This document shows positions 2,035 through 14,210 of a stretch of DNA of 30,439 bases, piece after piece. The stretch lies in the IMG/VR virus record IMGVR_UViG_3300010392_005354, positions 1-30,439 of that record; one strand, given 5' to 3'. Under the pieces are notes generated by a model. The model made no database searches, was not told the DNA's origin, and was given only the letters and a program-made list of their open reading frames with translations. A program made the translations under genes and the position numbers. The first letter of the stretch is position 1. The number at the start of each line of letters is the position of its first letter. This DNA is from a virus.

Positions 2035-2162
2035 TGGCTGAGGTTCTGACCGCGATTCAGTGGGTGGCCGCGGTCGTCACGTTCGTGGCTGGCATCGGTG
2101 TTGCCTGGAACTGCGTCAACATCTGGCGTCAGTGCAGCCGGATCGACAGAGCGCGCGGATGA
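2034..2162 (+). CDS. Small single-pass membrane protein, 42 aa
   Basis: A short ORF starts in a TGATG overlap with the preceding stop and itself ends in an ATGA overlap with the next start. The tight coupling on both sides argues that it is real. The product has one hydrophobic segment (about residues 7-28, Ile/Val/Ala-rich with WVAAVVTFVAGIGVAW) followed by a basic, Cys/Arg-containing tail (RQCSRIDRARG), predicting N-out/C-in topology. AAGGAG lies about 8 nt upstream of the ATG. It could be a holin- or antiholin-like peptide or a host-membrane effector. The sequence does not decide. Confidence 0.6.
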   Translation: MAEVLTAIQWVAAVVTFVAGIGVAWNCVNIWRQCSRIDRARG

Positions 2163-2482
2163 ACCGCCGCCAGTTTCTCATCAGCGCCGGAGCGACCACC
2201 GCAAGCGGGGCGTTCCTGGTCGGACCGGCCGAACTGATCATGGGTGAGGCCTGGTTGGCATCGCCGGCGGAGATGCTGGACTTGGCGCGGCGGGAGTTCG
2301 AGGATGCCATGTCGCGGGCGCTGACCGGAGACACCGACGGCATCGAGAGGGTCGGCCCCTTGAGCATCCGGTACACGAACCTCGCGTACCCGTTCTACGG
2401 GTCGTCGGAAGACTACGCGCGGATCTTGACGCAGGTGCAGAACACCATCAGTGCCATGGCCGACATGCTGCCGGAGGCATGA
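2159..2482 (+). CDS. Small exported protein with Tat signal (1 of 2)
   Basis: The 107-residue product begins MNRRQFLISAGATT followed by a hydrophobic, Ala/Gly-rich stretch. This is a classical twin-arginine (RRxFL) signal, so export of a folded protein is predicted. The mature part (about residues 35-107) is helical and acidic, with no recognised catalytic motif and no cysteines. The start overlaps the previous stop (ATGA), and its own stop overlaps or abuts the next gene. The next gene has the same signal type, which suggests a functional pair. The protein's role is unknown. Confidence 0.68.
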   Translation: MNRRQFLISAGATTASGAFLVGPAELIMGEAWLASPAEMLDLARREFEDAMSRALTGDTDGIERVGPLSIRYTNLAYPFYGSSEDYARILTQVQNTISAMADMLPEA

Positions 2483-3128: not shown

Positions 3129-3202
3129 GCGGTCTTGGCCGAGAGGCTAGGCGCCGGGCTTCCATCCCGGTCACGTCGATTCGATTCCGTCAGGCCACTC
3201 CA
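3129..3202 (+). tRNA. tRNA-Gly (anticodon UCC), CCA encoded, slightly degenerate
   Basis: The 74-nt cloverleaf has acceptor arms 3129-3135 and 3192-3198 (6 of 7 paired, one C-A mismatch). The D-arm is GCC/GGC with A14, G15 and the GG pair in the loop. A perfect 5-bp anticodon stem CCGGG/CCCGG encloses loop CTTCCAT, giving anticodon TCC at 3161-3163 (reads GGA, Gly). The T loop is TTCGATT, but its stem has two mismatches, including an A-C pair at the usually invariant 53-61 position. T73 and CCA are encoded (3200-3202). It lies between phage genes, so it is probably phage-borne. The mismatches leave open a decaying or atypical tRNA. Confidence 0.75.
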
Positions 3203-3216
3203 ATCCCGAGGAAATC

Positions 3217-3525
3217 ATGAAAACCCTGGAGACCTACCTGGTCGACGCCGAGCACAAGGGCGTCATCGACCACCGACTGCGTATCCAGCGTGGGCGCGTC
3301 GGCGAGGTCCGGTTTTATATCCATCCGGATGGCGTCGATGGTGACACCCTGGACTTCGAGGTGCAGGGCAACGGGCTGTTCCCGGTGCTGATGCCGATCG
3401 ATGGTGTTGCCGTCGACCTGATCGAGGGACCGGCGCTGGCCACCAAGGCGGACGTGGAGGGAGTCAAGATCCAGGTTGCCGAACTCGGCAACTATCTTAC
3501 GCGTACCCTGCCAGATGGCCGATAG
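3217..3525 (+). CDS. Unknown protein, 102 aa
   Basis: The ATG at 3217 follows GAGGAAA with good spacing, 14 nt after the tRNA. The sequence has a beta-rich core (GEVRFYIHPDGVDGD, LDFEVQGNGLFPV) and a more helical C-terminus. No signal peptide or membrane segment is seen. The last 11 nt overlap the methyltransferase gene. I do not recognise a family. Its position, first after the tRNA and before the terminase, suggests an early-late accessory protein, but no function can be assigned. Confidence 0.65.
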   Translation: MKTLETYLVDAEHKGVIDHRLRIQRGRVGEVRFYIHPDGVDGDTLDFEVQGNGLFPVLMPIDGVAVDLIEGPALATKADVEGVKIQVAELGNYLTRTLPDGR

Positions 3526-4318
3526 GGCTGATGTGCCGACGTGGCGTCCCGGCGACGGCCCCGAGGCGCACCGTTCCAGCCTCGACTATTCGCCCGAGGC
3601 AATCGCGCAATTTCGTTCGCACCGAATATCGGCGGGCCACCAGAAGTGGCCTGACCAGACGGCGGCATTCGATGGCGACTGGTACGCCCGGCCGACTGCC
3701 GCAATCGCCATACCTGCGCTGCGCACCATGCGCGACCGGTTCCGGGCGATGGTGTCGGATGTCGGCCTGTTCGACAGGCTGATTGAAGACGACGGCCGCT
3801 GCGGCGGCGCCGACTGGCGCCTCGACGGGGTGCGCGTCACCTCGACCTCGATCTGGTCAGCGTACTACGCATGCCGGATCCTCGAGCTGGCCCCGCATGC
3901 TCGCTCGGTCGTCGACATCGGAGGCGGCTACGGCCACCTCGCCCATGTGCTCGCCGAGTTCTACGCGAGCGTGACTCTGGTCGATCTTCCCGAAGTGCTC
4001 CGCCTCGCCGAGGCGTTCACGGACCGGGTGACACTGGCGCACCCATCCGGCCAGTGGGGCGGCGACCTCATCGTCAACACCATGTCGATGCAGCACATGA
4101 CGCCGGCCAATCTCGCCTACTACGGCGCCCGAATCGCAGCATGCCGGCCCGCCGGGTTGTACCTGGTGAACCGCACGGTCAAGCGAGACCCCACCGATAC
4201 GCCGCTCGATGCCTATCCGTTCCTCACCGACTTCGCAGAGCAGTCCCGGCGCGCGATCGGACCGAGCCACGCGGAAGTGTTCGCCACCTGGAGGCGCAGC
4301 GATGCCCATGCAGCCTGA
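3515..4318 (+). CDS. SAM-dependent methyltransferase, putative sugar O-methyltransferase (NanM-like)
   Basis: The 267-residue product has a class I SAM-binding motif I, VVDIGGGYG (132-140), followed by a second strand with an acidic residue, TLVDLPEV (154-161). A later block is DLIVNTMSMQHM (184-195). The WSAYYACRI segment just before motif I and the LxDLPEVL block resemble the putative sugar O-methyltransferase family (NanM-like), which acts in surface-polysaccharide loci. DNA methyltransferase motifs such as DPPY are absent. ATG 3515 is chosen over an upstream in-frame start at 3476 because it gives only an 11-nt overlap. The substrate is inferred, while the methyltransferase fold is well supported. 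Confidence 0.75.
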   Translation: MADRADVPTWRPGDGPEAHRSSLDYSPEAIAQFRSHRISAGHQKWPDQTAAFDGDWYARPTAAIAIPALRTMRDRFRAMVSDVGLFDRLIEDDGRCGGADWRLDGVRVTSTSIWSAYYACRILELAPHARSVVDIGGGYGHLAHVLAEFYASVTLVDLPEVLRLAEAFTDRVTLAHPSGQWGGDLIVNTMSMQHMTPANLAYYGARIAACRPAGLYLVNRTVKRDPTDTPLDAYPFLTDFAEQSRRAIGPSHAEVFATWRRSDAHAA

Positions 4319-4523
4319 CCAGCCGGCCGCTCCGCTCGACCGCCGCGAGATCACCCGCCGCCTCGCGCTCTGGGGCGGCGACGCGGCCCCGCTCGACGCG
4401 ATGCTCGACGGCCACACCCGCCGGTCGGCCGGCGCCGGCACCGCCTCCCCCGCCTCGACGGGGCCCCTGGGAGGGGGCGCCCACCACGGGTCGGGCAACC
4501 AGCCGTGCAAATCCACCGGCTGA
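4302..4523 (+). CDS. Short unknown protein upstream of terminase, 73 aa
   Basis: ATG 4302 follows GGAGG with 7 nt spacing and overlaps the methyltransferase stop by 17 nt. The first 47 residues look like a genuine helical peptide (DRREITRRLALWGGDAAP). The C-terminal third is Gly/Ser/Pro-rich and coincides with a self-complementary DNA stretch (about 4446-4480, CCTCCCCC facing GGGAGGGGG). The tail may therefore be shaped by an RNA hairpin rather than by protein selection. No family is recognised. Coding status rests mainly on the Shine-Dalgarno and the gene spacing. Confidence 0.5.
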   Translation: MPMQPDQPAAPLDRREITRRLALWGGDAAPLDAMLDGHTRRSAGAGTASPASTGPLGGGAHHGSGNQPCKSTG

Positions 4524-4569
4524 GAGCTTCTGACCGGCCGTTCAACATCAACATCGCGGGGCGGATCGG

Positions 4570-5100
4570 ATGGCATCGAAGTCCGCTCGGACCTTCAACC
4601 TCAATGAGGCCGCGGCGATCATCGGCGTGACGCGCCAGACGCTCGGCCGATGGATCGATCTTGGCGCGCCGGTGATCACCCGGGCCGATCGCTCAGCCGG
4701 CATCGAGTGGGAGTTGTCCGTCGCCGAGATCATGGAGTGGCGGATCAAGCGGGCGGTCGATGACGCGGTCGCCCGGTACGAGGGCGGCGCCGACAAGATC
4801 ACCAAGGACGAGGCCGATCGCCGCCGAGCCGTCGCCCAGGCGATCACGGCCGAGGTCGAGGCCGACGAGACGCTTCGGAGCGTGGTCGCGGTCGCCGACG
4901 TTGTCGACGTCGTCACCCAGGAATACGCCGCGGTGCGCACGCACCTGCAGTCGGTCGGATCCAAGGTCGCAGGCCGCGCCGCTTCGATGACGAGCGCGCC
5001 TGCGATCCAGGAGCTGGTCGACGAGGCGATCACCGACGCCCTGGAGGCGCTGACCTACGATGGACGCCTCGCTCAGGATCGGCCAGCACAAGCGGGGTGA
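4570..5100 (+). CDS. Terminase small subunit, Nu1 family
   Basis: The 176-residue protein is close to the length of lambda Nu1 (181). The N-terminus holds a winged helix-turn-helix (about residues 10-55: FNLNEAAAIIGVTRQTLGRW), the DNA-recognition domain that binds cos-type sites. The ELSVAEIMEWRI segment follows, then a long charged helical region (60-120) and a C-terminal helix that would contact the large subunit. It recognises concatemeric DNA and recruits gpA for packaging. Its end overlaps terminase large by 41 nt, as expected for a co-translated pair. Confidence 0.88.
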   Translation: MASKSARTFNLNEAAAIIGVTRQTLGRWIDLGAPVITRADRSAGIEWELSVAEIMEWRIKRAVDDAVARYEGGADKITKDEADRRRAVAQAITAEVEADETLRSVVAVADVVDVVTQEYAAVRTHLQSVGSKVAGRAASMTSAPAIQELVDEAITDALEALTYDGRLAQDRPAQAG

Positions 5101-7117
5101 GTATGCCTTCGGCCAGGCGGCACTGACGGAGTCGCTTCGCCAGGTCCGCGGCCACGCCCTGATGATCCGCCGCCGGATCACCGGGTCCGAATGGGCGGAT
5201 CGCCACGGGTACCTGCCCGCCGGCACTGGCGCCGAGACGGGCCGGATCAAGCTCTACGGCTACCAGCGCGGCATCCTCGACGCATTCTGCGACCCGACGA
5301 TTCCGCTGATCACCGTCCCGAAGGCGGCGCGCGTCGGGTACACGCGACTGCTGCTTCTGGCGACGGCCTACCACCTCGAGCAGGACCCGACGACGTGTGC
5401 CATCGCGCAGCCGACCATCCCCGACGCCGAGGACTTCGGACGCTCGGAGGTCGGGCCGATGTTGCGGGACACACCGGCGCTCGCGCGGCTGATGCGGCCG
5501 ATCCGCAAGGGCGAGGCCAGGGACACGCTGACCGACATCTTCCTGTCGAACGGCGGAGTGTTGAGGCTCCGGGGTGCGGCGTCTGACGATGCGTTCCGCC
5601 GCTACCCGGCGCGGTTCCAGGCCGCAGACGAGGTCGACGCCGAGGGCTGGTCGTCGGCCGGCGCCAAGAGCCAGGGCGACAAGTTCAAGCTGTTCTGGAC
5701 CCGTGGCGAGACCTACTGGAACCGCAAGCAGATCCGCGGCGGCACGCCGGTCATCGAAGAGACGTCGCGGGTCTGGCGAGAGTGGCTGAGGTCGGACCAG
5801 CGGCGGTACTTCGTCCCCTGCCCGCACTGCGGGGAGATGCAGTTCCTGGAGTGGGGCGGCCCCGAGGTCGCCCACGGCCTGAAGTGGGAGCTCGACGACG
5901 GCGGCACGATCAAGGGGGTCTGGTACGTCTGCCGCAACGGCTGCGTGATCGAGGAGGGCCACAAGGTCGAGATGGATGCCGCCGGCGAATGGCGGCCGAC
6001 GGCCAAGCCCCGCACGCCCGGGCATGCCGGCTTCCACCTCTGGACCGGCATGTCTCTCAACCCGAACGCGGCCTGGCCTGTGATCGTCCAGGAATGGCTC
6101 GACGCACAGAGCGACCCGGCGACGCTGGTTCAGCCGTTCGTCAACCTCCGCCTCGGCCGGCCGTACAAACTGACCTATGGCCAGGAACTGAAGGTCGAGA
6201 GGTTCACCGGCCGGCGCGAGGCGTACCCATCCGAGCTGCCGCCCGGGGTGCTGTTCCTGACGGTGGGTGCCGACGTGCAGTCGGCCGAGGGCGTCGATCC
6301 GCGCATCGAGGCGAGCATCTACGGCTGGGGCAAGGGCTCCGAGTGCTGGCTGATCGGGCACTGGATCATCCGCGGCGACCCGTCGGGCCCGAAGGTCTGG
6401 CAGGAGCTGTACGACCTGCTCAAGCGCGGGTTCGTCGCGGTCGACGGCCGGCGGTATCCGATCTCCGCTGCGGCGATCGACTCCGGCGGCCACCACACGG
6501 CCGAGACCTACGAGTTTGCATCGGCCCATTCGTCGGAGAGCAACCCCAGGATCTGGGCGATCAAGGGTGCATCCGAACAGAAGGGCCGCCGCCGCCCGGT
6601 GTGGCCCCGCAAGCCGTCGAAGGGCAAGGGTGGGACGGTCTACCTGATCGGCGGCAACGCGGCGCGCGACTTCGTCTACCGGTCCCTGGCGGTCGAGCGG
6701 CCGGGTGCACGCTACGTCCACTTCCCGGCGCAGGCCCCGAGCGGGTCCGAGGATCTGGACGACGAATGGTTTCGCCAGCTGACGCGCGAGCGCCTGACGA
6801 TCCGCAAGGGTGGGTTCACCGAGTGGGTCAAGCCGAAGGAAAGCCACGAGGCCGGCGTCTGCCTGGTCTACGCCTATGCCGCGGTGTGCGGGCTGCAACA
6901 GGTCGACCGGCGGTTCCTGCGTGCAGTCGAGGCCGGGCGCCTGCCGGTCACGCCGCAAGTCGCCGAGCCGGAGGCCGATGAGCCCCAGGCGGATCCCGAG
7001 GTCGAGGCGGCCGAAACCGAAGCCGCACCGGCGCCCGCGCCCGTGGTCAAGGCCGTGGATGCGCCGGCGAAGCCGAAGAGACGGCGCTCGGTGCGCAGCT
7101 CGTTCATGAGCCGGTAG
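5060..7117 (+). CDS. Terminase large subunit, GpA family
   Basis: The 685-residue ATPase/nuclease translocates DNA into the prohead. A lambda gpA-type Walker A variant is present at about 86-97 (VPKAARVGYTRL). An acidic Walker B-like FQAADEVD lies at 186-193. A four-cysteine zinc-like insert uses C254, C257, C291 and C295. The nuclease domain begins near VGADVQ (402-407), with D405 a likely metal ligand and IDSGGHHT downstream. The protein is about 45 residues longer than lambda gpA because of an Ala/Pro/Glu-rich tail ending in KPKRRRS. That tail may be a flexible portal-binding extension. It is followed 8 nt later by gpW. Confidence 0.95.
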   Translation: MDASLRIGQHKRGEYAFGQAALTESLRQVRGHALMIRRRITGSEWADRHGYLPAGTGAETGRIKLYGYQRGILDAFCDPTIPLITVPKAARVGYTRLLLLATAYHLEQDPTTCAIAQPTIPDAEDFGRSEVGPMLRDTPALARLMRPIRKGEARDTLTDIFLSNGGVLRLRGAASDDAFRRYPARFQAADEVDAEGWSSAGAKSQGDKFKLFWTRGETYWNRKQIRGGTPVIEETSRVWREWLRSDQRRYFVPCPHCGEMQFLEWGGPEVAHGLKWELDDGGTIKGVWYVCRNGCVIEEGHKVEMDAAGEWRPTAKPRTPGHAGFHLWTGMSLNPNAAWPVIVQEWLDAQSDPATLVQPFVNLRLGRPYKLTYGQELKVERFTGRREAYPSELPPGVLFLTVGADVQSAEGVDPRIEASIYGWGKGSECWLIGHWIIRGDPSGPKVWQELYDLLKRGFVAVDGRRYPISAAAIDSGGHHTAETYEFASAHSSESNPRIWAIKGASEQKGRRRPVWPRKPSKGKGGTVYLIGGNAARDFVYRSLAVERPGARYVHFPAQAPSGSEDLDDEWFRQLTRERLTIRKGGFTEWVKPKESHEAGVCLVYAYAAVCGLQQVDRRFLRAVEAGRLPVTPQVAEPEADEPQADPEVEAAETEAAPAPAPVVKAVDAPAKPKRRRSVRSSFMSR

Positions 7118-7125
7118 GAGGGCGC

Positions 7126-7332
7126 ATGGCCTGGACTCAGGACGACGCCGACGCTCTGAAGGCTGCCATCGCTGCCGGCGCCAAGGATGTGACCTACAGC
7201 GACGGCTCGCGCGTCGTCTATCGGTCGCTGGCCGAGATGCGCGAGACGCTGCGGCTGATCGAGAACGAGGTCGCCGGGTCGACCGTCAAGCGGACCCGCA
7301 CGCTGCGGTTCACCACGAGCAAGGGGTTCTAG
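7126..7332 (+). CDS. Head-tail joining protein gpW
   Basis: The product is 68 residues, the same length as lambda gpW. It has the characteristic opening helix, an SDGSRVVYRSLAEM hairpin and a second helix ending in a basic tail. gpW stabilises packaged DNA and forms the platform on the portal for the connector. AGGAGG sits just upstream of ATG 7126, and the gene lies between terminase and portal exactly as in lambda. Confidence 0.9.
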   Translation: MAWTQDDADALKAAIAAGAKDVTYSDGSRVVYRSLAEMRETLRLIENEVAGSTVKRTRTLRFTTSKGF

Positions 7333-7335
7333 CCG

Positions 7336-8850
7336 ATGGCCGCTCGCTCGCCCGTGCGCTTCAGGATCAAGGGGACGTCGGTCTATGTGGAGCCGCGCGC
7401 CTCGACTGCCTATGAGACGACCGGCACCGGCCGACGCTCGCTGGCGATGCGCGTCGGCAGCTTCGGACCGAACGCCGCACTCGACTATTCGTCGGACGCG
7501 CTGCGGGCGCAGGCTCGCGACGCCGACCGCAAGAACGGTCTCGCGAAGGTCATCGCCGACCGGCTGGCGGCGAACATCGTCGGCACCGGGATCATGCCGC
7601 AGCCGACCTCGACGCGGGCCCGCGATCTGTGGGCGCGCTGGACGGACGAGGCATCGGCCGACGGAACGCTCGACTTCTACGGCATGCAGGCGCAGATCGC
7701 CCGCGCCCTCCCCGTATCCGGCGAGTGCTTCATCCGGTTCCGCCCGAGGCGCCCGGAAGACGGCCTGACGGTCCCGCTCCAGCTCCAGGTGCTGGAATCC
7801 GACTACGTGCCCATGGACAAGAACGAGACGCTGCCGAACGGGCGCGGCTGGATCCGGCAGGGGGTCGAGTTCAACCCCGTCGGTCAGCGGGTCGCATACT
7901 GGATGTACCGCCAGCATCCGTCCGACCGGCAAGTCCTCCAGACCTTCGACATGATGCCGGTGCGCGTGCCGGCTTCCGAGGTGCTGCACGTCTATGACGC
8001 GTTCAGCGCCCGGCCCGGCCAGGTCCGCGGCGTTCCCTGGATCACCCAAGCGTTGCCGAAGCTGAAGGACCTGGACGGCTACGACGACGCCGAACTGATG
8101 CGCAAGAAGGTCGCGGCGATGTACGTCGGGTCGGTCAAGCGCAACCTGCCGCAGGGCATCACCGCCGAGGAACTGAAGGACATCTGGGGCGAGGATGCCG
8201 AGCTAGAGGACGGCATCGGGTCGGTGTCGTCGGAACCGGGGACGATCAACCTCCTGGAGCCCGGCGAAGAACTGGAGTGGAGCAGCCCCCAGGACGTCGG
8301 CGGCATGTACGAGGTGTACAAGCGCGACCAGCATCGGCTGATCGCCGCTTTCGCAGGCCTGCTGTACGAGCAGCTGACGGGCGACTTCAGCAGCCTCAAC
8401 GACCGGACCTGGCGCGCGGCGTTCAACGAGTTCAAGCGCCGGTGCGAGATGTGGCAGCACCACATTCTGGTCTATCAGTTCTGCCGGCCGGTGTGGTCGC
8501 GATGGATGGCGACGGCGCGTCTGACGGGCGCGCTGCGGCCGGCGGAAGCGCAGGACGTGGTGAAGTGGGTGCCGCAGGCGTGGCCCTACATCAATCCGAC
8601 CCAGGACATCGAGGCGACCGAAGCCGAGATCCGCGCCGGCATCGCCTCGCGGTCGCAGAAAGCATCCGAGCGCGGCCTCGACTCCGCAGAGATCGACGCC
8701 GAGCAGGCTGCGGACAACGCGCGGGCCGACAAGCTGGGGCTGAAGTACGATTCCGACGGCAGGCAGAAGAAGGGCAGCGGGTCGACCCAGCAGCCCGGCC
8801 AGTCGGCGCAGGACGGACAGCAGGACAGCCAGGGGAAGCAGGCGGCATGA
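7336..8850 (+). CDS. Portal protein, lambda gpB family
   Basis: The 504-residue protein has typical lambda-type portal blocks: ARDADRKNGLAKVIADRLA, NIVGTGIMPQP, GECFIRF, LQVLESDYVP and VEFNPVGQRVAYW. Together with its position 3 nt after gpW, this makes the call firm. The portal forms the dodecameric vertex through which DNA enters and to which the connector and tail attach. The last 60 residues are Gln/Gly/Ser-rich and probably disordered. Its stop overlaps the next start (ATGA). In lambda the protease would follow directly, but here a glycosyltransferase-like gene intervenes. Confidence 0.93.
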   Translation: MAARSPVRFRIKGTSVYVEPRASTAYETTGTGRRSLAMRVGSFGPNAALDYSSDALRAQARDADRKNGLAKVIADRLAANIVGTGIMPQPTSTRARDLWARWTDEASADGTLDFYGMQAQIARALPVSGECFIRFRPRRPEDGLTVPLQLQVLESDYVPMDKNETLPNGRGWIRQGVEFNPVGQRVAYWMYRQHPSDRQVLQTFDMMPVRVPASEVLHVYDAFSARPGQVRGVPWITQALPKLKDLDGYDDAELMRKKVAAMYVGSVKRNLPQGITAEELKDIWGEDAELEDGIGSVSSEPGTINLLEPGEELEWSSPQDVGGMYEVYKRDQHRLIAAFAGLLYEQLTGDFSSLNDRTWRAAFNEFKRRCEMWQHHILVYQFCRPVWSRWMATARLTGALRPAEAQDVVKWVPQAWPYINPTQDIEATEAEIRAGIASRSQKASERGLDSAEIDAEQAADNARADKLGLKYDSDGRQKKGSGSTQQPGQSAQDGQQDSQGKQAA

Positions 8851-9701
8851 GGGTCGCGGTCTACGACATGGCCGAGCGGCCGGCGACGTTCGACATCGTC
8901 CCCTGGATCGCCACGGTCGACGCGATGGCCGGCTATGAGGTTGTGCGCTTCGTCGTCCTGGCCGACCGGTTCCGCGACAGGTCGCCGAAGGACAAGGCGC
9001 TCTCGGCGGCCGACAAGATGGCCAGGGTCGAGCGCGTCATCGTCCCCGCCTGCCGGCTGCTGCCGGGCGCGGGAGTCGAGATGATCACGGACCCGGCGCG
9101 TGCGGAGGAATGGCGCCGCCGGTCCGACGCACTCAAGCCCTCGACCTTCGTCGCCGAGACGATCCGCCAGCACGCCGCCGGCCGGGACGTGCGCCGCCTG
9201 CGGGCCTCCGTGCCGTCGCCGCACCCGGGCGCCGCCGTGATCACGATCCGGCAGAACCCGGCGGTTCCGGAGAAGAACTGCGACATCGGCGAATGGCTGG
9301 GTGCCGCCTCGACGTTGATGGCCGAGGGCCACGACGTGGTGATGGTGCCGGACACCGCGACCGCCGCCGGCCGGCTGCCGCAGGGGTTCCGGTGGTGTCG
9401 CGAGGCGGCGATCGACCTTTCCGTCCGGGCCGCGCTTTACCAGGAGGCGGCCTGCTCCCTCTCGATGGGGGTCGGGCCGATGCACATCGCCATGCACATG
9501 CGGGCGACCCGCTACGTCTGCTTCGTGAAGCACCGGAGCCCTCTGGTGGAGCGCCCGGAGGACTACGAGCGGAAGTGGGGCCTGAAGTGGGGCCAGCAGC
9601 TGCCGTTCGCCGGCCCCGGCCAGATCATCGAGTACCGCCAGGACGACGAAGACGTGATCGTCGAGGCGTTCCGCCGCACGCAGGTCCGCGCCGCAGCCTG
9701 A
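8847..9701 (+). CDS. GT-B/heptosyltransferase-like protein inserted in head module
   Basis: The 284-residue product opens with MRVAVYDMAERPATFDIVPW and later has a Rossmann-like C-terminal half. VITIRQNP (about 131-138), GHDVVMVPDTA and CSLSMGVGPMHIAMHM (about 206-221) resemble the nucleotide-sugar site of GT9/heptosyltransferase-type GT-B enzymes. This layout recalls uncharacterised proteins from capsule and LPS clusters of alphaproteobacteria. The N-terminal half is short for a full GT-B enzyme, so it may be a reduced or non-catalytic member. It overlaps the portal stop by 4 nt and precedes the protease by 15 nt, so it is co-expressed with head genes. The enzymatic role is inferred. Confidence 0.6.
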   Translation: MRVAVYDMAERPATFDIVPWIATVDAMAGYEVVRFVVLADRFRDRSPKDKALSAADKMARVERVIVPACRLLPGAGVEMITDPARAEEWRRRSDALKPSTFVAETIRQHAAGRDVRRLRASVPSPHPGAAVITIRQNPAVPEKNCDIGEWLGAASTLMAEGHDVVMVPDTATAAGRLPQGFRWCREAAIDLSVRAALYQEAACSLSMGVGPMHIAMHMRATRYVCFVKHRSPLVERPEDYERKWGLKWGQQLPFAGPGQIIEYRQDDEDVIVEAFRRTQVRAAA

Positions 9702-9716
9702 CACCGGGAGGTGCGC

Positions 9717-10637
9717 ATGACGCAACCCCACGACTATCCGCACGTCCTGTCGCGGCTGATCAACGAGCCGCTGCTGGCGCACCCGACGAAGGCCGAGGTG
9801 GTCGTCGCGGCCGTGCTGCGCCGCCAGGGGGTCGAGGTGAACGTGGCGGCGTCAGCTGAGTTCGTGCAGGCGCCGAAGGCCGGGCCGCTGCAGGAAAAGC
9901 GAATGGTCGACCGCAGCGGAGGCATGCCGTTCCTGTTCGACCCGTCGAGCGGCATCGCGGTCATCAACATCTCTGGCAGCCTGGCGCACAAGCAGGGCTT
10001 CATCGGCAAATCGTCCGGCGTGATGGGCTACGACGGGATCGGGGCGCAGTTCCAGACCGCCATGGACTCCACGATGGTCCGCGGCATCATACTCGACCAT
10101 CACACGGCCGGCGGAGAAGTCCACGGCGCGTTCCAGCTGGCCGACTGGATCTTCGCAGCCCGCGGGCGCAAGCCGATCATCGCGGTTTCCGACGAGATGG
10201 CCTACTCGGCCGGCTACCTGCTCGCCTGCGCCGCCGATGAGGTCTGGCTGGCGTCCAGCACCGCCGGCGTCGGCTCCATCGGCGCCGTCGTGGTGCATAT
10301 GTCCTACCAGACGATGCTGGAAGCCGAGGGCATCAAGGCGACGGTGTTCCGGTTCGGCGAGAGGAAGGCCGACGGCAACCCGTTCGAGGATCTGAGCGCC
10401 GACGCCGCAGACCGGATCCAGGCCCGCATCGACTACCTCGGCCGGGAGTTCGTCGGCCGGGTCGCGAAGTGGCGCGGCATCTCCGAGAAGGCCGTGATCG
10501 ACACCCAGGCCGCCACCTTCGTCGGCCAGGAGGCCGTGCGCCTCCGCCTCGCGGACGGCATCGCCGATCCGATCGACGTGTTCCAGGCGTTCGCCCGGGA
10601 CATCGCCCGCCGGCCGTTCGGCCGACCGCTTCAGTAA
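9717..10637 (+). CDS. S49 family head maturation protease (lambda gpC-like)
   Basis: The 306-residue SppA-type serine protease carries the catalytic serine block DEMAYSAGYLLACAADE (Ser164) and a lysine in FGERKADGNPFEDL (Lys217), the Ser/Lys dyad of S49 peptidases. It cleaves scaffold and portal during prohead maturation. ATG 9717 is preferred over GTG 9711 because GGGAGG lies about 5 nt upstream of it. It is shorter than lambda gpC (439 aa) because the scaffold portion, which in lambda is the C-terminal Nu3 part, is a separate gene here. Confidence 0.93.
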   Translation: MTQPHDYPHVLSRLINEPLLAHPTKAEVVVAAVLRRQGVEVNVAASAEFVQAPKAGPLQEKRMVDRSGGMPFLFDPSSGIAVINISGSLAHKQGFIGKSSGVMGYDGIGAQFQTAMDSTMVRGIILDHHTAGGEVHGAFQLADWIFAARGRKPIIAVSDEMAYSAGYLLACAADEVWLASSTAGVGSIGAVVVHMSYQTMLEAEGIKATVFRFGERKADGNPFEDLSADAADRIQARIDYLGREFVGRVAKWRGISEKAVIDTQAATFVGQEAVRLRLADGIADPIDVFQAFARDIARRPFGRPLQ

Positions 10638-10649
10638 CAGGAGGCCGTG

Positions 10650-11237
10650 ATGGCAATCAGCGACCACCTGCGGAGCCTCATGGGTTCCGCGGCACCCACC
10701 GACGTGCGCGCGAGCGCGACCGCCTCGGAGCCCGAGGCGCCGGAAGCCCCGGAGGATGACACCCCGGAGCCCGAGGTCGAGCCCGAGGAAGAGGCGGGCA
10801 AGGGCGATGGCGAGAAGGCCGAGGCCGATCCGCCCGCGCCCGAGACCCCGAAGGCCGCAGACCCGGCGGAGATCGCGGAATACTGCGCGGCCAACGGCTG
10901 CCCGGCGCTGGCCGGCCCGCTGATCCGCGAGAAGGCGACCATGGACCAGGTCAAGGCCAAGGTCGGCTCTGTCGAGACCACCCGGGCCCTGGTCAAGGAC
11001 GCCGGCCTGCTGGCGCCCGCCATCAAGGCGGATGCGGCCGACGCCTACATCGCCGCCGGCACGTCCGTCGAGGATGTCCGCGCCTCGCTCTGGGATCGCA
11101 TCGTGAAGGCGCAGAGCCCGGAGATCCGCAGTTCGATCGCCGCCGATACCGGCGTTCCGAACGCCGCCGAGGGCTGGAACAAGGCCGTCGGCAAGGTCAA
11201 CGCACGCATCGAAGCCACGCAGCCGAAGGAGGGCTGA
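10650..11237 (+). CDS. Capsid scaffold protein (Nu3-like, separate gene)
   Basis: The 195-residue product has an acidic Pro/Glu-rich first third (about residues 25-75), as in capsid scaffolds. A block follows (DPAEIAEYCAANGCPALAGP ... EDVRASLWDRIVKAQ) that closely resembles the segment usually found C-terminal to phage S49/ClpP proteases. ATG 10650 has AGGAGG 5 nt upstream, and GTG 10647 would be too close. The gene directly follows the protease and precedes gpD, so it acts with them to build the prohead and is then degraded. The assignment relies on position, composition and this block. Confidence 0.7.
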   Translation: MAISDHLRSLMGSAAPTDVRASATASEPEAPEAPEDDTPEPEVEPEEEAGKGDGEKAEADPPAPETPKAADPAEIAEYCAANGCPALAGPLIREKATMDQVKAKVGSVETTRALVKDAGLLAPAIKADAADAYIAAGTSVEDVRASLWDRIVKAQSPEIRSSIAADTGVPNAAEGWNKAVGKVNARIEATQPKEG

Positions 11238-11240
11238 ACC

Positions 11241-11621
11241 ATGACCACCCTGACGGAAGCCTACCCGGCGGCCAACTTCATCCTGTCGGAAGCCGCCGGC
11301 ACCCGCTCGCGCGAGAGCGCGGCCATCGCGGTCGGCCAGACCCTCGTCGTGGGCGAGATCGTCCAGGACGACGGCTCCGGCGGCCTGACCACCATGACCG
11401 GCACCCTGGATTCGGCCGGCGACCTGGTCGCCCAGGCCAAGGGCATCATGGTCTACCCCGGCGCGTCCGACTCCACCGAGACGCAGACCCGCACCTACAT
11501 CGCCCGCGATGCCGAGGTGAACGGCAACCTGCTGACGTTCCCGACGGAGACCTCCACCGGGAACGAGCGCGTCCTGACCATCGCGAGCCTCGCGCTGCTC
11601 GGCATCATCGTCCGCGACTGA
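11241..11621 (+). CDS. Head decoration protein, gpD-like
   Basis: The product is 126 residues (lambda gpD 110). It is beta-rich with no signal peptide and includes the block DLVAQAKGIMVYPGASD, where D-type proteins describe the 'AKGI...' strand, and an RDAEVNGNLLTFP segment. It lies between scaffold and major capsid protein, as in lambda. It forms trimers that cement the expanded capsid. The extra N-terminal residues resemble those of many non-enterobacterial D homologues. Confidence 0.85.
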   Translation: MTTLTEAYPAANFILSEAAGTRSRESAAIAVGQTLVVGEIVQDDGSGGLTTMTGTLDSAGDLVAQAKGIMVYPGASDSTETQTRTYIARDAEVNGNLLTFPTETSTGNERVLTIASLALLGIIVRD

Positions 11622-11677
11622 GCGGTTCCCTGACACCACGACGGCGCTGAACCGCCGATCACGAAGGAGCAAAGACC

Positions 11678-12700
11678 ATGGTTATGCTCGACGTCTTCAA
11701 CTCCGACGCGTTCAGCGTCACCAACCTCACGGACGCGGTCAACAAGATCAGGTTCGTGCCCGGCCGCATCGGACAGATGGGGCTGTTCAACGAGTCCGGA
11801 GTCACCACCACCTCGGTTGCCATCGAGGAGAAGGATGGGACCCTCGCGCTCGTCTCGCCCGCCGCCCGCGGCGCGCCCGGCGGAACCCTGACCAAGGTCA
11901 AGCGCACCCTGCGCAATTTGACCGTCCCGCACTTCCCGATCGAGGACTCGGTCATGGCCGAGGAGGTCCAGGGCGTCCGGGCATTCGGGTCCGAGACCGA
12001 GATCGAGACGGTGATGGGGAAGGTCGCCGAGCGCGGTGCCATCCACACCCAGTCTTACGCGGCAACGCAGGAGTACAGCCGGATCGGCGCGGTCAAGGGC
12101 ACGGTCACCTACGCCGATGGCACCACTCTGAACCTGTTCACGGAGTTCGGCGTGTCGCAGCTGACCGAGGTCGACTTCGACCTGGACAACACCGCGCCGG
12201 CGTCCGGCGCTCTTCGCAAGGCCTGTGCGGGCGTGGTCCGGTCGATGGCGGGTGTCCTCGAGGGGCTCCCGTTCTCCGGTCTGCATGCGTTCTGCGGCGA
12301 CGCGTTCTTCGACGACCTGATCGCGCATCCGGAGGTCCGCGAGACCTACAAGAACTGGACGGCGGCCCAGGAACTCCGCCAGGGCTACGTCCAGGGCGGT
12401 CTGTCCTACGGCGCGTTTCCGTTCGGCGGAATCATGTGGGAGAACTACCGCGGCTCCGTCGGCTCGACGACCTTCGTCAACACCGACAAGTGCCACATCT
12501 TCCCGACGGGCGTTCCCGGGCTCTTCCGGACCTACTACGCGCCGGCCGACTACATCGAGACCGTGAACACCATGGGTCGGCGCCTGTACATGAAGCAGTA
12601 CATGATGCTGAACGGCAAGGGCATCCATCTGGATACCCAGATGAACGCCCTCGAGATCTGCACCCGCCCGCGGGCGCTGATCCAGGGCAAGCGCACCTGA
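11678..12700 (+). CDS. Major capsid protein, gpE family
   Basis: The protein has 340 residues against 341 in lambda gpE. It opens MVMLDVFNSDAFSVTNLTDA and includes VKRTLRNLTVPHFPIEDSVMAEEVQGVRAF (about 69-98) and FPTGVPGLFRTYYAPADYIE near the C-terminus, all typical of the family. It forms the HK97-fold shell. AAGGAG is 8 nt upstream of the ATG, and a 56-nt gap separates it from gpD, so a separate strong initiation region is plausible. Confidence 0.95.
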   Translation: MVMLDVFNSDAFSVTNLTDAVNKIRFVPGRIGQMGLFNESGVTTTSVAIEEKDGTLALVSPAARGAPGGTLTKVKRTLRNLTVPHFPIEDSVMAEEVQGVRAFGSETEIETVMGKVAERGAIHTQSYAATQEYSRIGAVKGTVTYADGTTLNLFTEFGVSQLTEVDFDLDNTAPASGALRKACAGVVRSMAGVLEGLPFSGLHAFCGDAFFDDLIAHPEVRETYKNWTAAQELRQGYVQGGLSYGAFPFGGIMWENYRGSVGSTTFVNTDKCHIFPTGVPGLFRTYYAPADYIETVNTMGRRLYMKQYMMLNGKGIHLDTQMNALEICTRPRALIQGKRT

Positions 12701-12704
12701 TCGC

Positions 12705-14210
12705 GTGAAGCCGACGCCTTGGCGCATCCCCCGGGAGTGGGCGGGCGAGACCTGCTTCATTCTCGGGGGTGGCGCTTCCCTCAAGGGCTTCGACGCCTCG
12801 ATCCTGCGCGGGCGCGGTCGCGTCATCGGGGTCAAGGAGTCGGGCCTGACCCTCGCGCCATGGGCCGACGTGCTCTACTGGTGCGACCCGCGCTGGATAG
12901 ACGCGAACTGGCAACGGCTGCACCTGCACACCGGCCAGTACAAGATCAGCCGCGCCGAGCTCGACAAGCGCGGCACCCCGAACATCCCGGACGGCAAGGC
13001 GAAGCGGATCACCGAGGCGCTGCTGGCGTCAGGCGTTCGCTACGTCCCGCGCGATCCGGTGACGCCCCTCTCGGTCGACCCGACGAAGACCGGCGCCGCA
13101 ATCGATGCCGGCGGATCCGCGATCAACGTGGCCTCCCTGTTCGGGTCGCCGCTGATCGCCCTCCTGGGGTTCGAGTTCAGGCCGGTCGGCCACTGGCACG
13201 ACCGCACGATCAAGGAGCCGGAAGCCGCCCATTACGAGCGCTTCATGGCGCCGATGGAGCGCATGACCGCCGCACTGCGCCAGGCCGGCGTCCGCGTCGT
13301 CAACTGCACGCCCGGTTCTGCGCTGACCTGCTTTCCCTTCCAGCCGCTCGAGGAGTTCCTCGCGATGGACTTCACTCCCCACGTCCGCACGCTGTTCCAG
13401 ACGCGCGGTCGGCTGTCGACCTTCACGCCCGACGGCGGCTCGGCGGTCAACTGCCGGGTCATCCGCCAGGGCGGCGGAGAGCCGGTGCAGATGGGGCCGA
13501 TCAAGGTCGTCGTCGACCGCACCCGGTTCCACGTCCGGCGCGCCGAGGTGGCATCGCCGGCCGCCGGCGACGTGCTGACCTTCGGCGGCAGCCCCTTCAC
13601 CATCGATGCGGTGCAGCCGGTCGAGCGCGACACCGACCAGCAGATGTGGCAGCTCGAAGCGTCCTGGGGCGCGACCGTCACCTATCGCAGCACGACCGGG
13701 TCCGGCATCACGCAGAGCCCGCCGCAGGGCTCCAGCTTCAAGGTCTACGCCGCGGCGCTGGCCGGGGTGTCGGCGATCTCGATAGACGCCACGTTCACCG
13801 TCGGCAAGCTGCTGGGCGGCGACACCTTCACGATCGCGGGGGACGCGACGGTCTACACGATCGCCAGCCCGGTCGCCGCGTCGTCGAACCGCTTCACGAA
13901 CGTGCCGTTCACGCCCGTGCTCGCCGCCGATGCGGCCGAGGATGCGGCCGTCACCTTCGATTTCAGCCGCGACTACAGCGTCCGCGCCGCGATCGCCGGC
14001 TACTCGGCCGAGGAGATCGCGGGCGGCGTCCAGGTCGGCGACCGGCGCGTGGTCATCCTGGAGGACGCGCTGGACGATGCCGGCATGTCGGACAGCCCGA
14101 AGGCGACCGACCGGCTGACGTTCGAGGGCAAGCAGTTCACCGTCGTGAATGCCACGGCGATCTACGGCGACGGCGTTCCGGTCGCCTGGGATCTGCAGGT
14201 CCGGGGCTGA
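12705..14210 (+). CDS. Fusion: MptE/DUF115-like domain + head-tail connector domains
   Basis: The 501-residue ORF starts at GTG 12705. Residues 1-220 form a Rossmann-like domain (CFILGGGASLKGFD, WADVLYWCDPRW, GGSAINVASL, LIALLGFEFR, VVNCTPGSALTCFPFQPLEE) that resembles MptE-like/DUF115 phage proteins. Those normally end just after the PLEE block. From M221 (ATG 13365) begins a connector-like part: a beta-barrel unit, a middle GDTFTIAGDATVYTI module, and a second unit resembling the first (LTFGGSPFTIDAV versus LTFEGKQFTVVNA). The connector part sits where lambda has FII. GAGGAG lies 9 nt before ATG 13365, so the connector could also be made separately. The fusion is the odd feature here. Confidence 0.7.
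   Translation: MKPTPWRIPREWAGETCFILGGGASLKGFDASILRGRGRVIGVKESGLTLAPWADVLYWCDPRWIDANWQRLHLHTGQYKISRAELDKRGTPNIPDGKAKRITEALLASGVRYVPRDPVTPLSVDPTKTGAAIDAGGSAINVASLFGSPLIALLGFEFRPVGHWHDRTIKEPEAAHYERFMAPMERMTAALRQAGVRVVNCTPGSALTCFPFQPLEEFLAMDFTPHVRTLFQTRGRLSTFTPDGGSAVNCRVIRQGGGEPVQMGPIKVVVDRTRFHVRRAEVASPAAGDVLTFGGSPFTIDAVQPVERDTDQQMWQLEASWGATVTYRSTTGSGITQSPPQGSSFKVYAAALAGVSAISIDATFTVGKLLGGDTFTIAGDATVYTIASPVAASSNRFTNVPFTPVLAADAAEDAAVTFDFSRDYSVRAAIAGYSAEEIAGGVQVGDRRVVILEDALDDAGMSDSPKATDRLTFEGKQFTVVNATAIYGDGVPVAWDLQVRG
13365..14210 (+). CDS. Possible independently initiated head-tail connector (in-frame internal start)
   Basis: Within the long fusion ORF, ATG 13365 has AGGAG at 13351-13355, giving 9 nt spacing. 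It lies exactly where the N-terminal family usually ends and the connector homology starts (MDFTPHVRTLF). Translation from here would give a 281-residue connector without the Rossmann domain. This is an alternative product of the same frame, not an additional reading frame. Confidence 0.4.
   Translation: MDFTPHVRTLFQTRGRLSTFTPDGGSAVNCRVIRQGGGEPVQMGPIKVVVDRTRFHVRRAEVASPAAGDVLTFGGSPFTIDAVQPVERDTDQQMWQLEASWGATVTYRSTTGSGITQSPPQGSSFKVYAAALAGVSAISIDATFTVGKLLGGDTFTIAGDATVYTIASPVAASSNRFTNVPFTPVLAADAAEDAAVTFDFSRDYSVRAAIAGYSAEEIAGGVQVGDRRVVILEDALDDAGMSDSPKATDRLTFEGKQFTVVNATAIYGDGVPVAWDLQVRG

Follow-up and report, generated by a model that had tools for sequence, protein, structure and literature searches.

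In a 30,439-nucleotide stretch of viral DNA (positions 1 to 30,439 of IMG/VR record IMGVR_UViG_3300010392_005354; hereafter the window), we found a set of glycan-modification genes lying among phage head genes, an assignment supported by homology, protein fold and comparison with other phages. The set consists of a putative sugar O-methyltransferase gene (3515-4318, + strand), a putative GT-B glycosyltransferase gene (8847-9701, + strand) and a DUF115/MptE-like domain with the Cst-II fold (12705-13364, + strand) that is joined in frame to the head-tail connector. Open reading frames (ORFs) are present at 3515-4318, 8847-9701 and 12705-14210. A preliminary description of the window had proposed a virion or host glycan modification system; the set itself is supported, while virion glycosylation is proposed as the best reading of it. 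We give roughly an even chance to the proposal that the phage places a small O-methylated glycan on one of its own virion proteins in the cytoplasm.

The product of the 3515-4318 gene (METHYLTRANSFERASE) scores 50.9 bits against TIGR04371, above the curated cut-off of 44. It also matches Methyltransf_23 (E = 7e-5) and has an intact S-adenosylmethionine motif, DIGGGYGHLA. With its open frame, these features bear out the preliminary label of a sugar O-methyltransferase-like gene, and we regard the product as a putative methylase of a sugar hydroxyl. The small terminase gene follows 252 bp downstream, and the start of the methyltransferase gene overlaps a small ORF (3217-3525) by 11 bases; a tRNA-Gly (TCC) gene at 3129-3202 sits immediately upstream of both. 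Since no terminator or promoter signals between the three sugar genes rose above the level of shuffled sequences, co-transcription of the methyltransferase with the head genes is possible.

The glycosyltransferase gene lies between the portal and protease genes, with its ATG overlapping the portal stop codon (ATGA), and encodes a 284-residue protein without a sequence match in Pfam (including PF01075), PHROG, NCBIfam or PDB. Its sole close homologue (63% identity) occupies the same slot in a related locus, L016, and remote homologues occur in the T7-like loci L007-L009; scanning viral contigs with the window-L016 alignment revealed no additional relatives. Profile scans of cellular genome contigs, using the glycosyltransferase alignment or an alignment of the terminase large subunit (TerL), likewise gave no relatives. 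The C-terminal stretch GVGPMHIAMHMRATRYVCF resembles the GT9 signature, by our own reading, and hhalign gave a weak match (20% probability) between residues 138-232 and a phage GT9 alignment. In a structure search, TibC heptosyltransferase chains made up most of the top PDB matches. The product is likely a GT-B enzyme. The preliminary GT-B-like label is plausible through this fold match, and the structure search it had suggested did return TibC heptosyltransferase as the best match, but with an E-value of 7e-3 on a low-confidence model (predicted local distance difference test score, pLDDT, of 50) and with no family match beside it.

In fold, the 8847 product comes closest to the TibC/BAHT autotransporter heptosyltransferases, which glycosylate proteins; it differs from them by its shorter length, the lack of a sequence family match and the lack of the iron-finger cysteine set. 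We rejected membership in BAHT on the last of these grounds: the family motif has four iron-finger cysteines, two of them forming a CxxC pair (PMC4358343), and C69, C184, C203 and C225 of the window protein form no such pair. Between the window and L016, the glycosyltransferase and the DUF115-like domain evolve with omega values of 0.41 and 0.31, respectively (structural genes, 0.10-0.39). Both are thus under purifying selection, which argues that they are more than chance open frames.

The best evidence that the first two genes belong together is their distribution. A search of 2.9 million viral contigs found methyltransferase relatives in two lineages only, that of the window's phage and that of the T7-like L007-L009 (42% identity), and both lineages also carry homologues of the glycosyltransferase; tblastn found no homologue of either protein in 50,697 phage records. 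The contig carrying L016 ends before the methyltransferase position. Because the two genes co-occur in unrelated phage lineages, they probably encode enzymes that work as a pair. In L008, their homologues lie about 1.5 kb apart and adjoin genes for ribonucleotide reductase, ThyX and deoxynucleoside monophosphate kinase. This neighbourhood speaks for a different explanation, in which the methyltransferase and glycosyltransferase act elsewhere, for example on DNA bases or a host metabolite, and sit among head genes merely as accessory genes (morons). Related locus L021 has an HNH endonuclease in the glycosyltransferase slot, which marks the slot as an accessory site, and the DNA methylases that the phage encodes upstream also favour this explanation. 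Against it, TIGR04371 and the TibC/GT9-like features indicate sugars, and the family of the third enzyme recurs behind head genes; we consider it quite unlikely.

This third member occupies residues 1-220 of the fused protein, which match phrog_4603 (E = 3e-27) over profile positions 2-174 of 178. The window domain gave no direct match to PF01973 at an E-value of 0.01, and 44 of the 57 aligned family sequences (the window's own excluded) matched that profile at 0.01 or better, so that the preliminary term MptE/DUF115-like is correct at the family level. A profile match links the domain to Cst-II of family GT42 (E = 1e-3), and Foldseek, run on an AlphaFold model with pLDDT mostly above 90 over the domain, matched it to Cst-II with E = 7.6e-5 and probability 1.00, which points to a GT42 fold. 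Position 44 is lysine in the window and L016, versus asparagine in all 53 of the other aligned relatives; one copy in Tetraselmis viridis virus S20, outside those 53, also has lysine there. From a hand reading of the HMMER alignment, we take this position to be equivalent to Asn31 in the Cst-II donor pocket. As aligned, then, the domain appears to be without the cytidine monophosphate (CMP)-site asparagine of GT42 and to carry K44 instead. The other strongly conserved positions are kept, namely GGG-S, D61, G155, HWH 163-165, N200 and S205.

With lysine in place of an otherwise invariant asparagine, the fused domain may have acquired another target or lost its activity. Loss of nucleotide-sugar residues had been put forward in the preliminary description as a sign of inactive proteins; such a loss is found in part, at one position of one protein. 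In Cst-II, His188 is the general base (PMC4202792); the profile alignment of the window domain stops short of this residue, and the family has the conserved HWH motif instead. A literal reading as an alpha-2,3-sialyltransferase, a label inherited from PHROGs, was rejected, as there is support for neither sialic acid use nor a CMP-site asparagine.

The domain and the connector form a single open frame (12705-14210) in both the window and L016, at 78% identity and a synonymous divergence of about 0.7. The connector part (13365-14210, + strand) is a double connector in which a gpFII-like head-tail joining domain is followed by a C-terminal head-completion-like domain. It matches NF049848 (E = 1e-15) as well as PF05354 (gpFII) and PF05521, and Foldseek aligned it with the lambda neck chain 8k37_M at probability 1.00. 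These two halves agree with the fusion proposed in the preliminary description. We rejected an assembly artefact as its source, given that three contigs show the open frame and L016 conserves it. The double connectors of the window, L016, L021 and L022 also contain a middle beta domain resembling parts of head or distal tail proteins.

The domain boundary at 13364 fits as well: a Shine-Dalgarno sequence, GAGGAG (13350-13355), precedes an ATG at 13365-13367 by a 9-base spacer, and the free-standing connector of L021 begins at the homologous methionine. This possible independent start (13350-13367, + strand) suggests that the connector could be separately initiated, as a product of about 282 residues beside the 501-residue fusion. 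The connectors of both L021 and L022 (TerL 81% and 62% identical to that of the window) are without the DUF115-like domain, and these loci lack the glycosyltransferase too, whereas L016 retains both the glycosyltransferase and the fusion. The domain therefore either joined a pre-existing connector or was lost in L021 and L022. None of the remaining loci in the survey described below has the fusion. A glycosyltransferase-fold domain attached to a head-tail connector would, to our knowledge, be without precedent.

What the fused domain does can be read in more than one way. It may be a retired enzyme that now serves the neck as a structural or decoration domain, with only the methyltransferase and glycosyltransferase active. 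K44, which the two phages with the fusion share and the 53 other relatives lack, is what such a domain might show, as are its persisting constraint (omega 0.31) and a covalent neck-protein fusion that is unique among the surveyed loci and has no phage record covering 80% of its length. Retention of the remaining strongly conserved positions speaks against retirement, as does the internal ATG with its Shine-Dalgarno sequence, which could split the domain and connector into separate products; on this evidence we judge retirement unlikely. Alternatively, the neck may carry the Cst-II/Maf-like domain as an enzyme or a sugar-binding collar, alongside a glycosyltransferase-methyltransferase pair that makes an O-methylated virion glycan. 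We put this forward tentatively, as a possibility on the unlikely side.

To place the domain in a wider context, viral contigs were searched with a four-sequence DUF115 alignment. This yielded 118 stretches encoding relatives, from which 80 loci were taken, and 67 remained after the window group and near-duplicates had been dropped; 29 head-operon loci selected by TerL served as the control. Glycan-type genes (methyltransferase, GT9, GT-A, nucleoside diphosphate (NDP)-sugar-transferase or orf12-like) accompany phrog_4603 in 35 of the 67 loci and in 0 of the 29 control operons, a comparison in which the reference enzymes came from domain-carrying phages, biasing the 35 upwards, and in which the control used the same references. 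On these counts, a glycan cassette is recurrent in phage head operons. A head gene is found no more than 1.5 kb from the phrog_4603 domain in at least 12 of the 67 loci, and in 12 cases the domain is fused to a methyltransferase or orf12-like domain. Its carriers include D3, PAJU2, S20, giant phages of Caulobacter and Brevundimonas and many environmental phages, mostly with the domain beside head or tail genes and often with adjacent methyltransferase and glycosyltransferase genes. In Caulobacter phage CcrColossus, for instance, the domain stands behind tail genes together with GT9, methyltransferase and NDP-sugar transferase genes. The preliminary statement that nothing comparable had been described in a lambda-like alphaproteobacterial phage was thus too strong, with the same domain present in D3, PAJU2, S20 and the Caulobacter and Brevundimonas phages.

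Several survey loci show arrangements of their own. L076 (4815-7751) and L081 (4593-7745) encode proteins of about 1000 residues, directly behind the capsid gene, that combine phrog_4603, orf12-like (phrog_6804) and methyltransferase parts. In L057 (4977-6234), two tandem phrog_4603 genes precede a GT-A-like gene and follow a 712-residue protease ORF that possibly includes the capsid protein.

Comparison of related loci connects the DUF115-like domain with the capsid. L021 is close to the window in its terminase, portal (69% identity) and connector (61%); its capsid is only 33% identical, and it has no domain. L081 has the domain, with a capsid 63% and a portal 34% identical to those of the window, and in L016 the glycosyltransferase, the domain and the capsid (83%) are all retained next to an unrelated protease. 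In these few comparisons, the domain tracks capsid type more than portal or terminase type; for the glycosyltransferase, the same link is drawn from L016 and L021 alone. Two head proteins are candidate acceptors: the major capsid protein (11678-12700, + strand; phrog_29, E = 3e-57) and the decoration protein (11241-11621, + strand; phrog_49, E = 1e-8), which is 21% serine plus threonine.

If the phage does glycosylate its own virion, modification would take place in the host cytoplasm, either ahead of head assembly or while it proceeds. The GT-B enzyme would move a sugar from a host nucleotide sugar to a virion protein, much as TibC does, most likely to the major capsid or decoration protein. 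The Cst-II/Maf-like domain would then add another sugar or extend the first, and the gpFII-like neck protein to which it is joined may deliver it to the assembling head; the methyltransferase would cap the sugar. In this scheme, catalysis, the donor and the acceptor protein are inferred, as are the sequence of reactions and the sharing of a transcript by the methyltransferase. Maf and TibC may serve as working models by analogy, both modifying proteins that later leave the cell. Maf enzymes (PF01973) and Cst-II share their fold with the 12705-13364 domain, and the protein that Maf modifies is assembled outside the cell; Maf differs in having two further domains, and the window domain in having lysine for the presumed nucleotide-site asparagine. 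The Cst-II-like Maf domain (pfam01973) glycosylates flagellin, which is exported and assembled later (PMC11339370).

The three sugar-gene products are free of likely transmembrane segments (hydropathy over 19 residues stays below 1.7), as cytoplasmic protein modification would predict. The same result bears on another explanation, that the genes alter the host surface (lipopolysaccharide, LPS, or capsule) so that superinfection is blocked or the serotype changes. Enzymes of the sugar O-methyltransferase and GT-B kinds also take part in LPS and O-antigen synthesis. However, the genes sit in the late head operon, one enzyme is fused to a virion protein, and no membrane-anchored glycosyltransferase or flippase is found among the three products. 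A serotype-conversion (gtr-type) cluster would include a membrane flippase and a membrane glycosyltransferase; no transmembrane-like segment was seen in the three proteins, and the scan covered part of the remaining genome. We therefore hold a host-surface role to be very unlikely.

Several observations weigh against glycosylation of the virion by this set. The glycosyltransferase model is poor and its TibC match lies above the usual significance limit; the fused domain has lysine where its 53 other relatives have asparagine. In the T7-like L007-L009, the methyltransferase-glycosyltransferase pair lies amid nucleotide-metabolism genes, not head genes. The tie of the DUF115-like domain to these two genes is seen in the window and L016 only, and its link to the capsid could be explained by mere gene adjacency.

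Virion glycosylation by phages is already known; what is new here is the neck fusion, the methyltransferase-glycosyltransferase pair and the survey figures. Mycobacteriophages Che8 (gp110), Corndog (gp38) and Myrna have phage glycosyltransferases, and their capsid or tail proteins are reported to be glycosylated (PMC12363180, PMC11256854, citing Freeman et al. 2023). The mycobacteriophage systems resemble the window in using phage-encoded glycosyltransferases and differ in host phylum, in their enzymes, in having no neck-protein fusion and, for Maravista, in a gene position near the 3' end of the genome.

Closer parallels come from Pseudomonas phages D3 (orf6.5-orf13) and PAJU2 (gp10-gp12), which like the window combine phrog_4603 with a methyltransferase in the region from capsid/portal to tail genes; in D3, orf7 is the phrog_4603 gene and orf13 the methyltransferase gene. 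They differ in that the domain is a separate gene, the partner is orf12 (phrog_6804) and tblastn shows no homologue of the 8847 glycosyltransferase. S20 likewise has two copies of phrog_4603, together with two glycosyltransferases and a methyltransferase, in the stretch from its capsid to its head-closure genes; its domain is not fused to the connector, and no homologue of the 8847 glycosyltransferase was found. In the open literature searched, phrog_4603 of D3-like phages is annotated and nowhere described as a virion-glycosylation system, and literature searches that paired phage sialyltransferases with nearby head genes or with major capsid proteins gave no hits.

The window follows a lambda-like head order: small and large terminase, gpW-like adaptor, portal, protease, decoration protein, capsid, connector and tail terminator. 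The head maturation protease (9711-10637, + strand; phrog_53) lies downstream of the glycosyltransferase gene. In L016, where the flanking head genes are closely related and the glycosyltransferase is retained, the same slot holds an unrelated ClpP-like protease (5196-6398). Two small overlapping ORFs of the window (2060-2482 and 2479-2967) encode products with twin-arginine translocation-like signals (MNRRQFLISAG and MHRRQFLLGSTALVAAP), which are unusual in phage.

The window proteins tested are 100% identical to parts of two further IMG/VR contigs. One of these, of 47.5 kb, appears to hold the whole window and about 17 kb of additional upstream sequence. Encoded there are two DNA methylases, a DNA polymerase III beta-like clamp and a protein with a GcrA domain. 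Since GcrA is a regulator of alphaproteobacteria, the host is likely an alphaproteobacterium. Locus L134 (7754-8779) encodes a phage protein whose C-terminal part is a GcrA cell-cycle regulator domain, and the adjoining genes are for a helicase, a beta clamp and DNA methylases of the N6 and C5 types.

Should virion glycosylation prove to be part of the head operons across many proteobacterial phages, phage sugar genes would set the particle surface, antibody recognition and adsorption well beyond the mycobacteriophages. Because phrog_4603 recurs behind capsid genes, this idea can be tested directly in a laboratory phage such as D3.

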